Of a stretch of 64,000 nucleotides of DNA, positions 43,794-52,198 are shown piece after piece. The translations under genes were made by a program, and so were the position numbers. The DNA comes from Verrucomicrobiales bacterium (GTDB lineage Bacteria > Verrucomicrobiota > Verrucomicrobiia > Verrucomicrobiales > DEV007): the NCBI GenBank assembly GCA_029213065.1, contig JARGPH010000006.1, positions 1 through 64,000 of the forward strand. The letters are read 5' to 3'. A model generated the notes under the pieces. That model had not been told where the DNA came from. It saw only the letters and a list, made by a program, of their open reading frames with translations, and did no database searches. Positions within the stretch are counted from its first letter, which is position 1, and each line of letters starts with the position of its first letter.

Positions 43794-45728
43794 TTAACGG
43801 CGTTTCTTTTTGCCTTTGGTGTGGCGGTCGCCTTTTTCTCCGGGCATTTTGGTTCGGCTCTTCGCGCCGCCGGGACCGGGTGAACCTCCTGCTGCTTTCG
43901 CTTTTTGAGCGGCTTCAGCCTGCTCCTGCATTCTCGCCATGAACCCTTTTTTGCCTGAGGTTGCTTTCTTTTTCAATTCAGGCTCAGGCATTTTGTTCAT
44001 GAGCCAGGTCTGAAGGATGGAGAAGGCGTTCGAAGTCGTCCAGTAGAGAGCGAGTGCTGCCGCGAAGTTGTAACAGATCACGAGGAAGATCAGCGGCATG
44101 AACATGAAGATCATCTGCTGCGTCTTATCACCGGTTTTAGGAGTGATTGCGATCTGAATGAAACTCGTCACTCCCATGAGGATGGGAAGAAGGTTGAAGG
44201 GAATGTCGAGTCCGGGAATCGTGAAGAGATAGTCGGGCATCGAGAGGTCATCGACCCAGAGGAAAGATTCGTGTCGCAGTTCCACGGCGCTCCAGAGCAT
44301 GCGGTAGAAGGCGAGGAAAACGGGCAGCTGGATGAACATGGGGAGACAGCCGCCGAGGGGATTGATGCCGTAGGTCTGATACAGCTTCATCGTCTCCTGG
44401 TTCATCTTCTGAGGATCGTCCTCATACTTCTCCTTAATTTCCTTCATCAACGGCGTCAGCTTGGACATCCGTTTCATGCTTCGTGCCGATTTGGCGTAGA
44501 CCGGCCAGATGAGGAGGCGGATCAGGATTGTGATGATGATGATCGCAATCCCGTAGTTTCCGACGAGGCCATTGAGCGCTACGAGGCCCATGATGAGCCA
44601 GGAGGCGAGGGGTTTGATCGCCCAGCCGAAGAGGAAACCGAAAATCGGAATCGCGTCGTAGTGCATGACCCGTTCGCGCTGGTCTCCGAGGCCTTTGAGG
44701 CGGGAGAATTCCTTCGGCCCGAGGTAGATGCTGTAGCTAAGGGTCTTTTGATCGCCCGGGTTCAGCGAGAGGTCGGGAAGTCCCACACCCATTTCGGCGG
44801 CGAACATGCGCTTTTTGAGAGAGGAGGCTTCGTCGTCCTCGACGACAACCGGGAAGCGGCTGGCCCAGAGCTTGGTAGCATAGGGCTCCTCGGCGCGAAT
44901 CATCGTAGTGAAAAACTGATCGTTCACTCCGGCCCAGTCGAGTTGCTCGACCCCGAAGGAGTCCGAAGGGATGAGGCCTTTTCCGAAAATGCCGAGGGTC
45001 TTCTTCTCGCGACCGAAGTGGTCGACGGTTTCGTAGTCAAACTCACCGCTTTGATCCATCCAATACATGCCGATCTGCATGGACATTTCATTGAGGTGCA
45101 GCGGTGCCGCTGACCCGGTGTAGAGGTAGTTGTTCGCAAAGTTCAGCGGGGTTTCCGCTGTATTCTTCACCGTCAGCTCCATGAGGACTTCGTGCGAATC
45201 GTATTCCGTGCCGGTGGGCAGGGTGAAGGTTTTCGTCAGTTCAAAGCCTGCCGCGGTCGTCGTTTTGAAGGTTGCCGAGGTGGCGTCCTGCGAGACAAAT
45301 TCCCAGTTGGTTGAGTCAAAGAGACCGGGGCCTTCCGAAAGAACCGCGACCCCGTTTGAGGCGGTGCGGTTGATCGTGATGTTCTCATCGCCTTCGATAA
45401 AGCGTTTGTGATCGCGCAGTTCGGCGACGCGAATTCCCGCCCCGCGAGTCGTGAGATGGAGTTTTACGCCGTCGTTCTCAAGAACGGATTCTTTTGCTTC
45501 CGCTTCAGGTGCAGCCGCTGTCGCAGCCGTTCCCGGTGCGCCTGTCGCAGCGGCGGGGGAAGTTCCGGCGCTCTTGGGATCCGCCGCCGGAGGAGCATTG
45601 GCGGCTTCGATCTCAGCGAGACGCGCGCGTTCTTCGGCTTGTTTGACTGCCTCTTTGGAGCTCCACCAGCCCCATCCGAAAAGCAATCCGAGGCAAACAA
45701 GTGCCCCAATCCAGGATGTTCGATCCAT
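43794..45728 (-). CDS. yidC: membrane protein insertase YidC
   Basis: Inserts and folds inner-membrane proteins with or without SecYEG. A start helix (MDRTSWIGALVCLGLLFGWGW) is followed by an Ala/Pro-rich linker and a large periplasmic P1 domain (about 75-345). The five-helix core starts near 375 (PIFGFLFGWAIKPLASWL) and has LLIWPVYAKSARSM, GGCLPMFIQLPVFLAFY and PLIFLVICYNFAAALALYW. The C-terminal ~55 residues are strongly basic, like the ribosome-binding tails described for some YidC proteins, including Rhodopirellula. ATG at 45728 was chosen over GTG at 45737. Confidence 0.96.
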   Translation of the reverse strand: MDRTSWIGALVCLGLLFGWGWWSSKEAVKQAEERARLAEIEAANAPPAADPKSAGTSPAAATGAPGTAATAAAPEAEAKESVLENDGVKLHLTTRGAGIRVAELRDHKRFIEGDENITINRTASNGVAVLSEGPGLFDSTNWEFVSQDATSATFKTTTAAGFELTKTFTLPTGTEYDSHEVLMELTVKNTAETPLNFANNYLYTGSAAPLHLNEMSMQIGMYWMDQSGEFDYETVDHFGREKKTLGIFGKGLIPSDSFGVEQLDWAGVNDQFFTTMIRAEEPYATKLWASRFPVVVEDDEASSLKKRMFAAEMGVGLPDLSLNPGDQKTLSYSIYLGPKEFSRLKGLGDQRERVMHYDAIPIFGFLFGWAIKPLASWLIMGLVALNGLVGNYGIAIIIITILIRLLIWPVYAKSARSMKRMSKLTPLMKEIKEKYEDDPQKMNQETMKLYQTYGINPLGGCLPMFIQLPVFLAFYRMLWSAVELRHESFLWVDDLSMPDYLFTIPGLDIPFNLLPILMGVTSFIQIAITPKTGDKTQQMIFMFMPLIFLVICYNFAAALALYWTTSNAFSILQTWLMNKMPEPELKKKATSGKKGFMARMQEQAEAAQKAKAAGGSPGPGGAKSRTKMPGEKGDRHTKGKKKRR

Positions 45729-45758
45729 GTTTTTCACAGCAATGGTGTCTTTCTAAGT

Positions 45759-46076
45759 CTAAGGTTTTAAATTGTCTGAGTGCGGAATATCGCACTTCCG
45801 GCGGCCTACATAAGCGGCTTCCGGGTGTTCCGCCACATATTCTTCCCAACCCGGAGGCGGATCATGTCCGAGACCTCCCCAGGGGTTGCATCGTAAAATT
45901 CTACAAAAGCCCTGCCAGGACCCTTTGAGCGCGCCGTTCACCGTAACCGCGTCGATGAAATACTGGGAGCACTGGGGGGTGAAGCGGCAGCCGCTGAAGG
46001 GCCCGCAAATAAAATGAAGCGGTGTGGAAATCACCACCTGGTAGATGCGAACGAGAAATATGAGGATCGCTTTCAC
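45759..46076 (-). CDS. yidD: membrane protein insertion efficiency factor
   Basis: Small membrane-associated protein thought to assist YidC. Contains the full family signature: FLVRIYQVVISTPLHFICG, GCRFTPQCSQYFIDAV and GFCRILRCNPWGGLGHDP. The start is GTG (46074-46076); no ATG is near. It lies 5 bp after rnpA and 30 bp before yidC. The 105 residues are slightly longer than the usual 80-90. Confidence 0.93.
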   Translation of the reverse strand: MKAILIFLVRIYQVVISTPLHFICGPFSGCRFTPQCSQYFIDAVTVNGALKGSWQGFCRILRCNPWGGLGHDPPPGWEEYVAEHPEAAYVGRRKCDIPHSDNLKP

Positions 46077-46081
46077 TTTCT

Positions 46082-46441
46082 TCAGTCAGTCGCAGGTTGC
46101 ATCAGGCCGGATTGGTGGAGCATCCATTTCCACTCTTTCTCCAATTGTTCGGAAGTCGCCTCTGCAGCACGAAAGCGTGCGATGACGACGAGTCGGAAAC
46201 CGGGGCGAATACGTTCGCCGGTGCGGTGGATGATCCCGCGTATGCGACGTCTCACCCGGTTGCGAACGACGGCACCACCGATCTTTTTTGTGGTGATGAG
46301 TCCCAGCTTGAACGGTTCGCTCATGCTTTTATCCGCGAGGAACCCGAGCACGAGGAATTTTCCTCGTATCGATTTCCCTTCCTTGCGGACACGAAGAAAC
46401 TCCGATCGTGATCGAATTCTTCGTGTGCGGGGGATCTTCAT
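46082..46441 (-). CDS. rnpA: ribonuclease P protein component
   Basis: Protein subunit of RNase P, which trims the 5' leader of tRNAs. The conserved basic helix RNRVRRRIRGIIHR (about 60-74), the preceding LGLITTKKIGGAVV, and the phenylalanine/arginine pattern FRLVVIARFRAAEA are clear. The 119 residues match the family. It follows rpmH by 86 bp and precedes yidD in the usual order. Confidence 0.94.
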   Translation of the reverse strand: MKIPRTRRIRSRSEFLRVRKEGKSIRGKFLVLGFLADKSMSEPFKLGLITTKKIGGAVVRNRVRRRIRGIIHRTGERIRPGFRLVVIARFRAAEATSEQLEKEWKWMLHQSGLMQPATD

Positions 46442-46527
46442 GGCCCCGGAACCGGTGAATCACCGGTATTGGCTGGTAACAGCACCGACAGGCATTTCCT
46501 TCCCTGAAAACCGGGAAGAGGAAACGA

Positions 46528-46713
46528 CTACTTCGTGTTGTGCTGAACCGTGTGGCGCTTGTACTGAAGCTCAGCACCTTTAGGCACAAGGCGCTTACGT
46601 CCCTTTTGGCGGCGACGCTTGATGAGATCGCGTCCTGCTTTGGTTGACATACGTACGCGAAAACCGTGCTGATTTTTACGTGTGCGCTTGGATGGTTGAT
46701 AGGTCCGTTTCAT
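46528..46713 (-). CDS. rpmH: 50S ribosomal protein L34
   Basis: Basic small ribosomal protein with the full signature [20 protein letters not shown] and [17 protein letters not shown]. The 61 residues exceed the usual 44-47 owing to a C-terminal extension ([18 protein letters not shown]). It heads the rnpA-yidD-yidC block. In many bacteria dnaA and oriC lie beside rpmH, but no DnaA-box cluster was seen in the 150 bp upstream. Confidence 0.95.
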
Positions 46714-46863: not shown

Positions 46864-48348
46864 TTATTCAAGCCTCTGAAGCTGTCCGATGCCGTAGTTG
46901 GTAAGCTGCTGGTTCACCACTTTGGAGGCGCGGTCGTCGACGTAGATAATTTTCGGGAAATCGCTGAACTCGATCACGTGGATCCCGTCTGCAGGCGGGG
47001 TTGAAATAGCTCTCGCGAGATCCTGGATGTTTTTGATGGTTTGCCCGTTCACATCCGTGATGATGGCTGAGTTGATGCCTTCGTAGCCGAGGGTGCTCGG
47101 GGTTTTGAGGACATTGCTGAGGAATACGAGCTTCTCACGGCCCTCTGCTTCAAACGGCTCCGGATTGGCGTTTGCGTGGACGAGCTTGAACGGGGCCCGG
47201 TTCGGCCATTCGTCGCCCCAGCTCTGAAGATACGGGAGGGTGAGTTCCTGAAAGATGAGGCCACCGAAAATGAGGTATTTCGGCCCGCGATCGAACATGT
47301 AGGGATCGATGAGGTAGTCTTCGGGGAGCTTTCTGGCGAGCTCGACGTCGATGCTCATGGGTTCGCCGTCGCGAATCACTTCGACTTTGACGACGTCGCC
47401 GGTCCGGGCGTCTCCTCTCACGATGTGCGAGAAGCTGAGTTTTCCGTATTCGGCGTGCTCGTAGTTGCCGCGTGAATCAATCGGGTGGCCGTCGATCGAA
47501 AGAATGACGTCTCCCTTCTTGATGCCCGCCTTGTCGGCGGAACCTTCTTTGGCGATGTTTCGCACGAAAATGCCACCGTCTTTGTCTTTGATTCCGACAA
47601 AGTCGCGCAGCGTTTCGTCGAGCGTCTGCGAGAAGCTGATACCGAGATTGGGAAATCCCTTGTAATCACCATCCTCGAGATCGGCGAGGAATTTTTCGAT
47701 GATGGGGGTCGGGAGGACGTTGGCGGTTTGTTCCTTCGAGGAATAGCTGAGAAGCATTCCGGCAAGCTTGCCTCCTTTAATGACAGGGAGGGTGAAGCTG
47801 TTCACGCGGGACTGAAGGGAGCCTTTGACTTGATAGAGCATGAAGACGGAGTCGGGGATGAAGTAGCGGCCCACGGTGACGCGCAGCACTTCAACCCCGG
47901 TGGAAACGCCGTCCCCGTTGTCTTCGATTTGCCAGACATCGAGTTGGTCGCCCGCCTTGGTTGAGCTCCCCAGTTCGAGCGGGGTGAGTCCTTCGAAAAC
48001 GGCGGTGTCGGAGTTGGCAGGCTCGAGAACGGCAAGATTGGCTTCGTAGTCGATTCCGGCGATTTTCGCAGGGACCCGGGCTCCGCTTGAGGGGTGCTCC
48101 AGTTCGAGGAAAGTGGAGTTGACGCACATTTCAGCGGTGATGAGGACGCGATTGTTGCTCAACAGTGCCCCGAGGCCGCGTCTCGGAGTCGGTGCTCCTT
48201 TCTCCCAGGGGCGGAGAAAGCTGTAGCTCTGGAGTGTTGCGTTGACGCGAACGATGGAATTTTCGGGCGACGAATCCTGAGCGCTTACGGAAAGGGCGCT
48301 GAGGCCGAAGCAGGAAACCGTTACGAGAAGGGTTTTGATAAAAGACAT
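46864..48348 (-). CDS. degenerate trypsin/PDZ protein (pseudoprotease)
   Basis: Signal peptide 1-23, then a DegP/HtrA-like trypsin fold (about 30-240) and a PDZ domain (about 245-345, GIFVRNIAKEGSADKAGIKKGD). A second PDZ-like region lies near the C-terminus (IITDVNGQTIKNIQDLARA). The catalytic His position reads TAEMCV instead of TNAHVV, and the Asp position reads NLAVL instead of DLALL. The Ser region VNSFTLPV has lost the GNSGGP motif. It is probably inactive and may act as an adaptor for its active neighbour, 52 bp upstream on the same strand. Length 494. Confidence 0.85.
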   Translation of the reverse strand: MSFIKTLLVTVSCFGLSALSVSAQDSSPENSIVRVNATLQSYSFLRPWEKGAPTPRRGLGALLSNNRVLITAEMCVNSTFLELEHPSSGARVPAKIAGIDYEANLAVLEPANSDTAVFEGLTPLELGSSTKAGDQLDVWQIEDNGDGVSTGVEVLRVTVGRYFIPDSVFMLYQVKGSLQSRVNSFTLPVIKGGKLAGMLLSYSSKEQTANVLPTPIIEKFLADLEDGDYKGFPNLGISFSQTLDETLRDFVGIKDKDGGIFVRNIAKEGSADKAGIKKGDVILSIDGHPIDSRGNYEHAEYGKLSFSHIVRGDARTGDVVKVEVIRDGEPMSIDVELARKLPEDYLIDPYMFDRGPKYLIFGGLIFQELTLPYLQSWGDEWPNRAPFKLVHANANPEPFEAEGREKLVFLSNVLKTPSTLGYEGINSAIITDVNGQTIKNIQDLARAISTPPADGIHVIEFSDFPKIIYVDDRASKVVNQQLTNYGIGQLQRLE

Positions 48349-48399
48349 GGCAAAAATGGTAGTGACGTTAATGGGAGTGCCGGATAATTGGCGATTGGA

Positions 48400-50154
48400 T
48401 CAGGCGGCTTTCTTTTCCTCTTCAGCTTCGGCAGTCGGTGTTTCCTGCTCTTCCTTTTCCGGATTAATTTCTTCGCCGTCCTCGTCGAAGAGATCCTTGA
48501 GCTGAAGAATTTCGGGCTCTTCAATAAAGTGGTCGAATCCAACGTTGTATTTCGCTTTGACCCGCTCGTGGGCAATCGCGGATTCTTTGCGTTTCAAAAC
48601 GAGGGGACGTCCTTCGCCGATCAGTCGAATGACGTGGTAATCCTCGTGGCCTTCTTCGTGAAAATCGCCGTGGAAGGCATCGAAGACATCCTGAAGGAGT
48701 CGGATCTTCTTGCCGTTAATCTCGTCGACGACCTTGTGCACATATGACTGCAGGTGAGTGTTAGTGGTGTCGGGAAGCACTTCAGTAAGGGCGATGACCT
48801 GGGGGCGTTCGCGGTAAAGTTCGTCTTGGCTGTAGTAGTTGTAGAAATAGCGGGTCTCGAGGTCGGTGACGGAGTGGGCTGCCATCATATTGCGATCCAG
48901 TGGCTGAAACTGAAGGCCAGCGTAGAGGACAAAGTTAGGGAGCTTGTCATACTGGCTCGCCTGAATGAGGTAGGGGATGAAACGCTTGAGTTCGAGGATG
49001 ACTTCCTTGCGGCTGCCGTCTCTCCAGATTTCAAGGTCAACGGTGTCGCCTGCAAATTTGCGTTCGATGATCTCGTTGAGGTCAACGCGTTCGCCTTCGA
49101 TTTCGATGAAGCCGTCGGAGGCGATGGGGTGACCATCGATAGAGAGGAGGACGTCTTTGGTTTCAAGGATGCCCCCGGCGGAACCGGAAACGTCAGCGAC
49201 GGCGACCATCACGCCGATGCCGTCATTGGGGAGGCCGAGGGCGCGTCGCTGGGCGGGGTTGAGAATATTGAGGAGGCTCGTCGCGATGTCGACGTAGTGA
49301 TCGTAGCTGCCGTCTTCGACATCTTTGAGGAATCGTTCGATCACGGGGACGGGGATCATGTAGCCGGTGTTCTGCGCGACGGAACCGGAGTAGCCCTGGA
49401 AGGCAACGCCGACGACCTGATTGTTCTGGAGGACGGGACCACCGGAGTTTCCGGGGTTGATTGCGGCATCGACCTGGATCGCGAGGTGATTGTCGACACT
49501 CGAGTGGCTGTAAGCACGGAAGTCGATTCGTGAGACAACGCCCCGTGTTACCGAGATGCGCTCACCGCCGATGGGGTAGCCTACTGCAACGACGGTGGTG
49601 TTCAGTTTGGGAAGTCCTCCTATATAAAGAGGGGTGAGGTCTTTGAAAGCGGAGTCAAATTCGGTATCCGACTCCAGTTCGAGGAGAGCGAGGTCGCAAT
49701 CGTGAGCGACATTGACGACGCGGGCCTTGTAGGGTTTCGGGTCGCTGACTTTTTTAATGTAGATGAGGCGGCTGTTGCTGACAACGTGTGCGTTGGTGAG
49801 GAAGCGGTTCGGTCCGATGAGGAAGCCGGTTCCATTGCCGCTTCCCATTCCGCCGATATTCCATGGGACGCGGAAGTTTGGCTGTTTGGTGTCTACCTCG
49901 ACACGCACGATGGCATCGAAATCGATTTCCGAGATATCAGCCTGCTGTGATTCGGGAATAGTCACATCCGCTGAAGGCGCCGTCGGCGGGGTGATAGGGC
50001 CCGGAACGAGGACAGGTGTTTCCGTCGCCGGGGCGAGTCTCGGGCCGGGGGCGGGAGCGGATGTAGTCTGAGCCAAAACGTAAGCGGTGTTCGCGGCCAG
50101 AAGGAGGCTCACGATCAATGTGGAGCGGGAAAAGAAAGGATTGAGGGCTTTCAT
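48400..50154 (-). CDS. DegP/HtrA-like serine protease with PDZ domain
   Basis: Exported protein (signal peptide about 1-29) with a Pro-rich linker and a trypsin domain (about 80-300). The triad is complete: His123 (LTNAHVV), Asp154 (DCDLALLEL) and Ser237 (NPGNSGGPVL). One PDZ domain follows (about 305-410). The last 180 residues hold a second PDZ-like region and a charged tail rich in Glu/Lys. It probably degrades or chaperones misfolded periplasmic proteins. ATG at 50154 was preferred over GTG at 50187 because of the signal peptide. It sits just upstream of the degenerate homologue. Confidence 0.88.
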   Translation of the reverse strand: MKALNPFFSRSTLIVSLLLAANTAYVLAQTTSAPAPGPRLAPATETPVLVPGPITPPTAPSADVTIPESQQADISEIDFDAIVRVEVDTKQPNFRVPWNIGGMGSGNGTGFLIGPNRFLTNAHVVSNSRLIYIKKVSDPKPYKARVVNVAHDCDLALLELESDTEFDSAFKDLTPLYIGGLPKLNTTVVAVGYPIGGERISVTRGVVSRIDFRAYSHSSVDNHLAIQVDAAINPGNSGGPVLQNNQVVGVAFQGYSGSVAQNTGYMIPVPVIERFLKDVEDGSYDHYVDIATSLLNILNPAQRRALGLPNDGIGVMVAVADVSGSAGGILETKDVLLSIDGHPIASDGFIEIEGERVDLNEIIERKFAGDTVDLEIWRDGSRKEVILELKRFIPYLIQASQYDKLPNFVLYAGLQFQPLDRNMMAAHSVTDLETRYFYNYYSQDELYRERPQVIALTEVLPDTTNTHLQSYVHKVVDEINGKKIRLLQDVFDAFHGDFHEEGHEDYHVIRLIGEGRPLVLKRKESAIAHERVKAKYNVGFDHFIEEPEILQLKDLFDEDGEEINPEKEEQETPTAEAEEEKKAA

Positions 50155-50311: not shown

Positions 50312-52090
50312 TCAAGGGAGCTTTGGCCGGGGAGGTGGTGCTGTTTCCTCGGGTTCCTCGTCTCCGGGGTAGGCGTTGTGTAACGTGATCTGAGTGAACG
50401 GAATTTCCCAGCCATTTTCATTACAGCACTCCACGGCGAGTCGTTGCATCGCGCGAGTGAGGGCCTCGTATCTGGGTGCGTGAATTCCGTCAAAGTCGGC
50501 GATGATCTCGTAGTCGAGGGAGGAGGCACCGGCGCTGGCGAATTCAACTCTGAGGCTGAGCAGTGAATCCCGGTCTTCGATGATCGTGTAGATTCCCTTG
50601 GTGATGTAGGCCCAGAGGATTTCGGGGATCTTGCCGGTGCAGTCAGCTTGATGCTTGTAATCAATTCCGAAAGTCGACTTGATGCGGAAATTCTGGGAAA
50701 GATTCTTCGGCGCTTTCGCGAGGAAATCAGTGGTGGGGATCGTAATTTTCGCCCCGCCGAGTTTCACGAGCTGGACGTATTCAGGCGTTTGTGCGATGAC
50801 GCGTCCCCGTCCTTCATCGGGAAGCTCGACCCAGTCGCCTTCATGGCAGGGGAACCACAGTTCGCCCTCTTCGCTGATGGGTCTTGAAATGTGATCAGCG
50901 AGAGCCCGGACCGGCAATCTGAGGAGGCCGCCCCGGAGATGATCGTTGATCAGAATCGAATAGAAGCTCAATCGCTCGACCCGCCAGGGCAGCCCGTTTA
51001 CGATGACCCTTTCGCCCTCGCGCACCTCCCCGAGATTGAGAAGAATTCGCGCGTGGTCGTAGAATTTCGGGAGACTGTTTTTAGCGGCGAGGATAACGCC
51101 GACGAGAATAATGATCGCGAGACCCATGAGGACCCAGTCGCCGGTCGCGTAGAGAACGATGAGTGATGCGATGACCGCTCCGATCAGTGAAAAGACGTTC
51201 AGTCCCACATCGATGAGGCGAATGTAGAAGGGGCGTTTCCCTTTCCTGCGCCAGGGGGCGAGTCGGTCGAGGCGCTGGTGTAGAAAGCGGAACAGGAAAT
51301 AGGTCAGGAAAAAGACAACGAAGCAGAGGAGAAAGTTCTGTCCCCGGCTGCGAAAGAATCCCCGGAAGCCTTCGCTGATCGTGGCAAGGAACGAAGGCTT
51401 GTTTCGCTCGGCCTGCTCAAGTTGATAAGAAATCGCCTGGATCCGGTTTTCGGCCTGATTTTTCCGCTCGGTCCATTTTTGCCTCGTCTCAGCGAGATGG
51501 GTCCGGAGCTCTCCCTCGGTGTCTGAAGGAATATCGCTCAGGTTGACGAGTGCCGTTTCAGTGGTGGTGAGACGTTTTTGCCAACTTGCGAGATCGCTTC
51601 GCAGCGCTTCGATTTCGCGGGGCTTTTCGGTGAGATCTTTTAACTCGGCTATGATGGGTTCGAGGATGCTGTCGAGTTCGTCCCCGAGGACAAAGGTTTC
51701 TTCGGTCGATTGATCATACTCGGCCGTGTCGATGCCCGTGGCGATCGCTTCAAAGTCTGATTTCAATTCCGTTTTGACGGCGGTGAGATCACGAATCTGT
51801 TTGTTTATCGCTTCCTTTTCCACTTCCGGCGCATTGGCGAGAGCGTTGTTGAGTTCCTTGATCCGGTTCTGATTGGTCTTGATCGACTCGAGAACTGAAG
51901 TGAGTGCATCGACGGATTTTTCAGCGTCTGAAGGTTCTTCAGGCACGGTCTCCTTCACCGGCAACGCCACTGCTTCCAATTCAGTAGCGACCGGCCCGGT
52001 CTGAGTCTGCGCAGTGGCCGAACAGTGGAAAAGAAAGAACAGGCAGGCAGTCAGGATTGCTGTTTTCACTGTTACCAAAGGTGGACGCAT
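50312..52090 (-). CDS. MscS-family mechanosensitive channel with coiled-coil domain
   Basis: Exported, with a signal peptide (MRPPLVTVKTAILTACLFF onward), a long coiled-coil region (about 50-255) rich in Glu/Lys/Gln, then a membrane domain with about four helices. It ends with the MscS core (GEVREGERVIVNGLPWRVERLS onward) and a cytoplasmic beta/alpha vestibule. Family members release solutes on osmotic downshift. ATG at 52090 was preferred because it begins the signal peptide; ATG at 52159 is in frame and gives 615 residues. It resembles the larger MscK/KefA-type proteins. Confidence 0.87.
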   Translation of the reverse strand: MRPPLVTVKTAILTACLFFLFHCSATAQTQTGPVATELEAVALPVKETVPEEPSDAEKSVDALTSVLESIKTNQNRIKELNNALANAPEVEKEAINKQIRDLTAVKTELKSDFEAIATGIDTAEYDQSTEETFVLGDELDSILEPIIAELKDLTEKPREIEALRSDLASWQKRLTTTETALVNLSDIPSDTEGELRTHLAETRQKWTERKNQAENRIQAISYQLEQAERNKPSFLATISEGFRGFFRSRGQNFLLCFVVFFLTYFLFRFLHQRLDRLAPWRRKGKRPFYIRLIDVGLNVFSLIGAVIASLIVLYATGDWVLMGLAIIILVGVILAAKNSLPKFYDHARILLNLGEVREGERVIVNGLPWRVERLSFYSILINDHLRGGLLRLPVRALADHISRPISEEGELWFPCHEGDWVELPDEGRGRVIAQTPEYVQLVKLGGAKITIPTTDFLAKAPKNLSQNFRIKSTFGIDYKHQADCTGKIPEILWAYITKGIYTIIEDRDSLLSLRVEFASAGASSLDYEIIADFDGIHAPRYEALTRAMQRLAVECCNENGWEIPFTQITLHNAYPGDEEPEETAPPPRPKLP

Positions 52091-52198
52091 GGCGTATCTT
52101 CTCATTGAACCGCAATTTATACCAGTGTAGAGAGATGTTTCCCCGTTAGTGCGAATCATACGTTTAACTTTCCAGACGTCACCCTCACCTCCCCCGAA

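Follow-up and report, generated by a model that had tools for sequence, protein, structure and literature searches.

This analysis concerns two adjoining genes, here called A and B, in a 64,000-nucleotide stretch of DNA from a Verrucomicrobiales bacterium (contig JARGPH010000006.1, positions 1 to 64,000; hereafter the window). An earlier reading, made from the letters alone (the sequence-only reading), had described them as a DegP-like protease next to a catalytically dead homologue on the same strand. Both open reading frames (ORFs) are found there, on the minus strand. Gene A (48400..50154, 584 residues, ATG at 50154) encodes a predicted active HtrA/Deg protease, and gene B (46864..48348, 494 residues) encodes a putative pseudoprotease, that is, a catalytically dead paralogue. 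The gap between the A stop and the B start (48349..48399) measures 51 bp, one less than the 52 bp first given. The promoter scan yielded four promoter-like matches compared with a mean of 1.5 (standard deviation 1.3) in shuffled sequences, one of them upstream of A and none between A and B. The terminator scan yielded seven terminator-like matches compared with 4.9 (standard deviation 2.4) in shuffles, none of which lies in the A-B gap.

The product of gene A has a signal-like N terminus followed by Trypsin_2, PDZ_2, and PDZ_3 domains, which is the architecture of the plant proteases Deg2 and Deg9. In the Pfam search, Trypsin_2, Trypsin, and PDZ_3 scored above their cut-offs (PDZ_3, 64.2 versus 22.8 bits), and PDZ_2 was marginally below (26 versus 27 bits). 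The catalytic triad named in the sequence-only reading is present and invariant in an alignment of 56 sequences: His123 (codon 49786..49788, computed from the ATG at 50154), Asp154 (49693..49695), and Ser237 (49444..49446), the last of which lies in a GNSGGP motif. Gene A thus has the features of a Deg/HtrA protease: a trypsin-like domain that carries the His-Asp-Ser triad and GNSGG, followed by C-terminal PDZ domains. Its AlphaFold model (mean predicted local distance difference test [pLDDT] score of 86.1) matches Deg9 and Deg2 with Z scores of 36 to 37. By these features, gene A is a secreted protease of the Deg2/Deg9 type with an intact triad and predicted activity.

Gene B aligns with gene A over the greater part of its length, and 117 of the 428 positions compared are identical (27%; E = 3e-34). 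The sequence-only reading had placed Met and Asn at the His and Asp positions of B. The Asn (Asn104, codon 48037..48039) was right, whereas the residue opposite His123, where LITAEMCV of B aligns with LTNAHVV of A, is Glu73 (codon 48130..48132), and Met74 is the next residue. The GNSGGP motif is lost, as had been noticed, and is replaced by VNSFTLP. B has a signal-like N terminus, a degenerate trypsin-like domain with a subthreshold Trypsin_2 match in Pfam (14.7 versus 27.6 bits), and PDZ_2, PDZ_3, and two other PDZ models above cut-off. Its AlphaFold model (mean pLDDT of 93.9, predicted template modeling score of 0.88) superimposes on Deg2 and Deg9 with Z scores of 37 to 39 over approximately 453 residues (VIA-align), compared with 24.9 for the next HtrA; the match to 5ilb has a Z score of 38.7 and a deviation of 2.5 Å over 453 residues. 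Hence, B has the Deg2/Deg9-type architecture of a trypsin-like fold plus PDZ_2 and PDZ_3 (PF17815), and the earlier statement that it keeps its signal peptide, fold, and PDZ domains holds. For A and B alike, the best solved relatives are plant Deg2 and Deg9, both in sequence and in fold. The genome to which the window belongs contains exactly two PDZ_3 matches, namely A and B.

Conservation of the pair and retention of gene B

To see how far the pair extends, we examined 147 A-B loci, of which 109 are from the phylum of the window (84 from its order and 25 others) and 38 are from elsewhere (37 from three further phyla, and locus L184). A part of the loci was chosen for having a match to B, so that counts out of 147 do not represent a pairing frequency, and the genomes are not independent events (the A proteins of L187 and L360, for example, are 95% identical). 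Seven B genes without an A in the locus, four from one genus (g30) and three at contig edges, are excluded from the pair counts. The alignments also exclude an unrelated HtrA ORF in L178 and the narrower second copies of loci that had been retrieved two times.

A lies upstream of B on the same strand in all 147 loci (109/109 in the phylum of the window and 38/38 in the others), and the two are separate ORFs in every case. A possible B start occurs within 60 nucleotides of the A stop in 141 of 146 loci. The full triad is found in 143 of the 147 A proteins (106/109 and 37/38, respectively), the remaining four being cut by contig ends, and the G[NS]SGG pattern is found in 147/147. Since the triad is complete in none of the 147 B proteins (0/109 and 0/38), B is classed as a pseudoprotease and not as a protease. 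Within the phylum of the window, the His position of B is mostly E, Q, or D (90/109), the Asp position is N in 99/109, and the GNSGG loop is lost. The pair is thus conserved with the same residue losses, which was the check proposed together with the sequence-only reading.

Outside the phylum, a scan of named genomes revealed a dead B directly downstream of A in three metagenome-assembled genomes (MAGs), L185 (Planctomycetota), L186, and L187 (Proteobacteria); the L186 MAG is labeled Deltaproteobacteria in one place and Myxococcota in another. A PDZ_3 search of the phyla of L185, L186, and L187 gave matches in 33 of 199, 18 of 188, and 26 of 58 genomes, respectively, and the matches lay side by side in 15, 4, and 24 of these matched genomes when read by hand. 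Of these 43 side-by-side loci, 37 were read in the present analysis. In the phylum of the window, 90 of 240 genomes have a PDZ_3 match; 57 of them have at least two, which adjoin in 53 (also read by hand). L184 comes from a MAG titled Akkermansia muciniphila, but its A is closest to that of L144 of family f10 (58% identity) and not to the small-genome genus g15, and the label may be wrong.

Unpaired PDZ_3 proteases also occur, with 33 singles in the first set and six more (L351-L356), all of which have the triad. Three of the 33 are pair-type A proteins with a B that is unlinked or off the contig, and L168, L170, and L176 were left out of the unpaired actives for this reason. In the tree of 125 proteins described below, four of L171-L175 group together as a branch of their own, made up of unpaired active proteases. 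L189-L191 are of the same single kind, and no B was found beside them.

The loss of catalytic residues could mean that B stems from a recent duplication and is now decaying as a pseudogene, and the sequence-only reading had named absence of the degenerate gene, or an intact copy of it, in close relatives as the sign of such decay. A search with B as the query gave a match (E ≤ 0.001) in each of the 141 genomes of the order, although such a match can be A or another HtrA. Outside genus g15, the best match is mostly full length with 40 to 77% identity, compared with 27 to 33% in g15. Eight genomes were rechecked, among them the four with the weakest best matches. In three of these four (G081, G055, and G062), a PDZ_3 gene is absent altogether and the matches to A are distant ones only, which indicates that A is missing from those assemblies too; in G135, the contig ends two bases after the match to A. 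An intact B was not seen in any of the 147 loci. In the 16 closest comparisons (not all independent, and one saturated), the ratio of nonsynonymous to synonymous substitution rates (dN/dS) was 0.031 to 0.156 for B and 0.025 to 0.102 for A. Two PDZ_3 matches from other phyla (G525 and G746) each had one in-frame stop flagged. Open frames, low dN/dS values, occurrence in several phyla, and a high-confidence fold refute the pseudogene explanation for the set examined, and we give it practically no weight; on this comparative evidence, B is not a decayed gene.

The presence of the conserved pair in distantly related bacteria also suggests a role for the dead copy as a working partner. Taken together, the comparisons provide good support for a pair that is co-inherited, with B under purifying selection, i.e., for a protease plus a partner. 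The proposal that the two work as protease plus adaptor or regulator is hence supported in part, in that co-inheritance and purifying selection on B speak for the partnership.

Two further explanations concern what B might do by itself. One is that B keeps a different, cryptic hydrolase site, an idea that draws on the NS pair preceding the former GNSGG place in many B proteins. The Ser of this pair is variable (S, T, G, and others), and B has no conserved His, which makes such a site very improbable. The other is that B has an independent, nonproteolytic function, such as binding of a metal or ligand like MamO, and is merely coexpressed with A. Residues that are conserved in B and private to it, being absent from A and from the unpaired actives, would fit such a function; examples are Asp100 (conserved at 0.92-1.00) and Gly302 (0.89-1.00). 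However, no His, Cys, or Ser occurs among the columns in which one residue reaches at least 75% in the 147 B proteins, so that no conserved metal site or new catalytic site is apparent, and the former His position is variable, with at least ten different residues. Moreover, the seven B genes without an adjoining A comprise the four in g30, where A is elsewhere in the genome, and three at contig ends. We consider an independent function rather improbable. The C terminus of B was also considered as a PDZ ligand, and this idea was dropped because an RLE or RLD ending is not general (37/147).

Ancestry and reciprocal divergence of A and B

Phylogenetic trees were built by a quick method with support from the Shimodaira-Hasegawa-like approximate likelihood ratio test (SH-aLRT) only, and some B branches are long (L369, L370, L375, and L376). 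In a tree of 125 proteins, thinned at 62% identity, all B proteins fall on one side of a branch with a support of 100, and A and the unpaired actives fall on the other. A tree across phyla, comprising 104 proteins from 44 of the 147 pairs and 16 unpaired actives, all chosen by hand, likewise places B on one side of a branch (support of 100), and A on one side of another (support of 89), apart from the unpaired actives. For the 44 pairs, the A tree and the B tree have 27 of 41 splits in common, whereas 500 shuffles gave 0.29 common splits on average and never more than three. Some of the common splits cross phyla. In these, L145 and L146, both from the phylum of the window, group with L186 and L357-L359, and L165 groups with L350, L185, and L337. 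The simplest scenario is a single origin of the pair, followed by joint transfer of the two genes between phyla; because the trees are quick and the B branches long, this single origin is favored but not proven. The mirror-tree correlation of 0.84 to 0.89 was not used as evidence of contact, since shared ancestry alone produces such a correlation.

To describe how the two copies diverged, we measured them against 36 unpaired actives, classing every alignment column in which at least 85% of these proteins share a residue. A residue counted as kept at 70% or more and as lost at 30% or less. In 26 columns, the residue is kept in A but lost in B. The protease domain accounts for 24 of them, among which are those of His, Asp, and Ser and of the oxyanion loop. 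The opposite pattern, retention in B and loss in A, was seen at Gly421 (36/36 in the unpaired actives, 97% in B, and 1% in A) and Tyr422 (36/36, 90%, and 0%) and at no other column. Both are in the PDZ_3 domain, which spans 46885..47301 in B, with the Gly421-Tyr422 (GY) codons at 47083..47088, and 48535..48963 in A, where the motif is replaced by His467-Leu468 (48751-48756). Gly231, Pro233, and Gly362 show a weaker version of the same pattern. An alignment-free GY pattern was found in 118 of 147 B proteins versus 2 of 147 A proteins. Measured against the unpaired actives, A and B have diverged by reciprocal loss, B having lost the active site and A the GY motif of PDZ_3. Pro47-Trp48 of B (48205..48210) is kept in both copies. 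It is situated in the loop that joins strands one and two of the domain, presumably loop LA, and is found in 100% of B and of the 36 unpaired actives and in 89 to 100% of A.

A proposed two-subunit protease

In most descriptions, an HtrA protease is an oligomer built from a single kind of chain. We consider it somewhat more probable than not that A and B are, instead, two subunits of one envelope HtrA protease that derives from a duplicated single-chain Deg2/Deg9-type HtrA, with B in a structural or regulatory role. After the duplication, A and B would be expressed from one transcript, exported to the periplasm, and assembled into a mixed HtrA oligomer, an A-B cage. A would provide the sole active site and do the cutting, and B would contribute an assembly or docking surface through its PDZ domains as well as part of substrate capture, and would control A. 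The docking role is suggested by the PDZ_3 landmark that is lost from A and kept in B. A alone would then be poorly assembled or poorly regulated. A more far-reaching version, in which an ancient two-gene HtrA machine occurs in four phylum-level groups, has seemingly been passed on as a unit, and represents a cage protease that was split reciprocally, such that proteolysis needs the mixed cage, seems to us to have slightly less than an even chance of being correct.

The main competitor of the mixed oligomer is a role for B as a PDZ chaperone or adaptor in its own right: B would capture unfolded envelope proteins and pass them to A, with no mixed oligomer being formed. In the order of the window, a glycine in a loop of the first PDZ domain (PDZ_2), which we take to be the peptide-binding loop, is always kept in B (84/84) and present in only 21 of 84 A proteins. 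By a crude measure, a hydrophobic N terminus is present in 145 of 146 B proteins (and in 134 of 147 A proteins), and co-inheritance and cotranscription fit a chaperone equally well. However, a PDZ adaptor would not need the entire trypsin-like domain that B keeps in a high-confidence fold, the conserved residues of B are distributed across all three domains, and the PDZ_3 residues are reciprocally lost in A. In addition, A proteins outside the order mostly keep the loop glycine (54/63), and it is found in 17 of the 36 unpaired actives, so that we treat this column only as a side observation. Overall, we regard the separate chaperone or adaptor as unlikely, though less so than an independent function.

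Several points weigh against the two-subunit proposal. Using the unpaired actives as a stand-in for the ancestor is an assumption, and the fully reciprocal columns are only the two of the GY motif, compared with 26 that A keeps and B lost. Among the 36 unpaired actives, no more than 21 have the alignment-free GY pattern, because its second half, a later NG, is not fixed in this group. Linkage of A and B is not needed in genus g30, where the genes are apart (B in L067, L073, L077, and L090; A in L168, L402, L403, and L404). In the single-contig genome G103, they are located at 2.03 and 3.59 Mb, 1.56 Mb from each other. Nevertheless, and in favor of the proposal, both genes are kept in all four g30 genomes, and the A triad is intact in all four. 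Finally, co-inheritance and operon structure would equally fit a partner that acts without stable binding.

If the two-subunit proposal is true, a two-subunit HtrA becomes directly testable, and the pair would provide a bacterial case outside magnetosomes of pseudoproteases controlling proteases. It would also mean that some likely serine protease annotations in these phyla refer to noncatalytic subunits.

The surroundings of the pair were compared by clustering ORFs within 5 kb on either side in 130 of the 147 loci (those longer than 7 kb) and in the window itself, many loci having only 2 to 4 kb of flank. The commonest shared neighbor family occurs in 18 of 130 loci, and a larger operon was therefore rejected; with no other widely shared neighbor, the functional unit appears to be A plus B alone. 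YidC-like and rnpA-like neighbors were found in 10 loci each, all in the order of the window. In the window, the pair is directly upstream of a cluster of the rpmH-rnpA-yidD-yidC type (43797-46712, minus strand), in which YidC is supported by the Pfam search and the names rpmH, rnpA, and yidD are our assumption. On the other side, upstream of the pair, the product of 50312-52159 (minus strand) has a subthreshold match to the MscS beta domain (19.6 versus 20.2 bits) and several weak matches to coiled-coil families, and is possibly a divergent mechanosensitive channel.

Comparison with known HtrA systems

DegP and DegQ of Escherichia coli are oligomers of one active chain, and we presume a similar role in periplasmic quality control for A, although both A and B score far below the NCBIfam cut-offs for DegP/DegQ. 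The plant proteases Deg2 and Deg9 (PDB 4fln and 5il9) are closer, having the protease-PDZ-PDZ_3 architecture in common with A and B and the PDZ_3 GY in their chains. Deg9, too, is an oligomer of one chain. According to the Deg2 study, Deg2 is a hexamer of one chain in which PDZ1 binds substrate, and PDZ2, blocked by an internal ligand, docks two trimers into the resting hexamer (PMC4877387). In the proposed A-B oligomer, B would take over this docking job of Deg2 PDZ2. The difference is that, in Deg2 and Deg9, one chain with an intact triad makes up the protease, whereas the A-B pair divides activity and PDZ_3 features between two genes.

A second comparison is with proteins that carry two protease parts in one chain. 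Nma111 has a PDZ_1 domain, and PDZ_1 (PF12812) was below the Pfam cut-off in both A and B. In work on AtDeg7, which has active and inactive domains in one chain, the inactive domain is described as being involved in trimerization (PMC3473262). Deg7, a clade III Deg protease, is a single long polypeptide, whereas the active and inactive parts studied here are two ORFs in 147/147 loci, which rules out a double protease like Deg7 or Nma111.

Within the open-licence PMC literature, we found no description of the A-B pair among the matches listed, which is weak evidence of absence. The pairing of active with inactive HtrA copies as such is already known from MamE/MamO and Deg7. In a study of the magnetosome proteins, MamO is required for MamE-dependent proteolysis although its own triad is dispensable, such active and inactive copies have paired repeatedly in magnetotactic bacteria, and a physical MamE-MamO interaction was not detected by the authors (PMC4794232). 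A and B do not belong to this pair: B had no MamO match among the NCBIfam matches listed (A scored 39.6 bits versus a cut-off of 800), and no TauE domain was found among the Pfam matches at E ≤ 1. MamE/MamO is also magnetosome-specific, and MamO possesses a di-His metal site in addition to its TauE-like domain, whereas B has PDZ_2 and PDZ_3 and no conserved His. With an active HtrA working alongside an HtrA-like partner, MamE/MamO is nevertheless the closest functional precedent for A and B.

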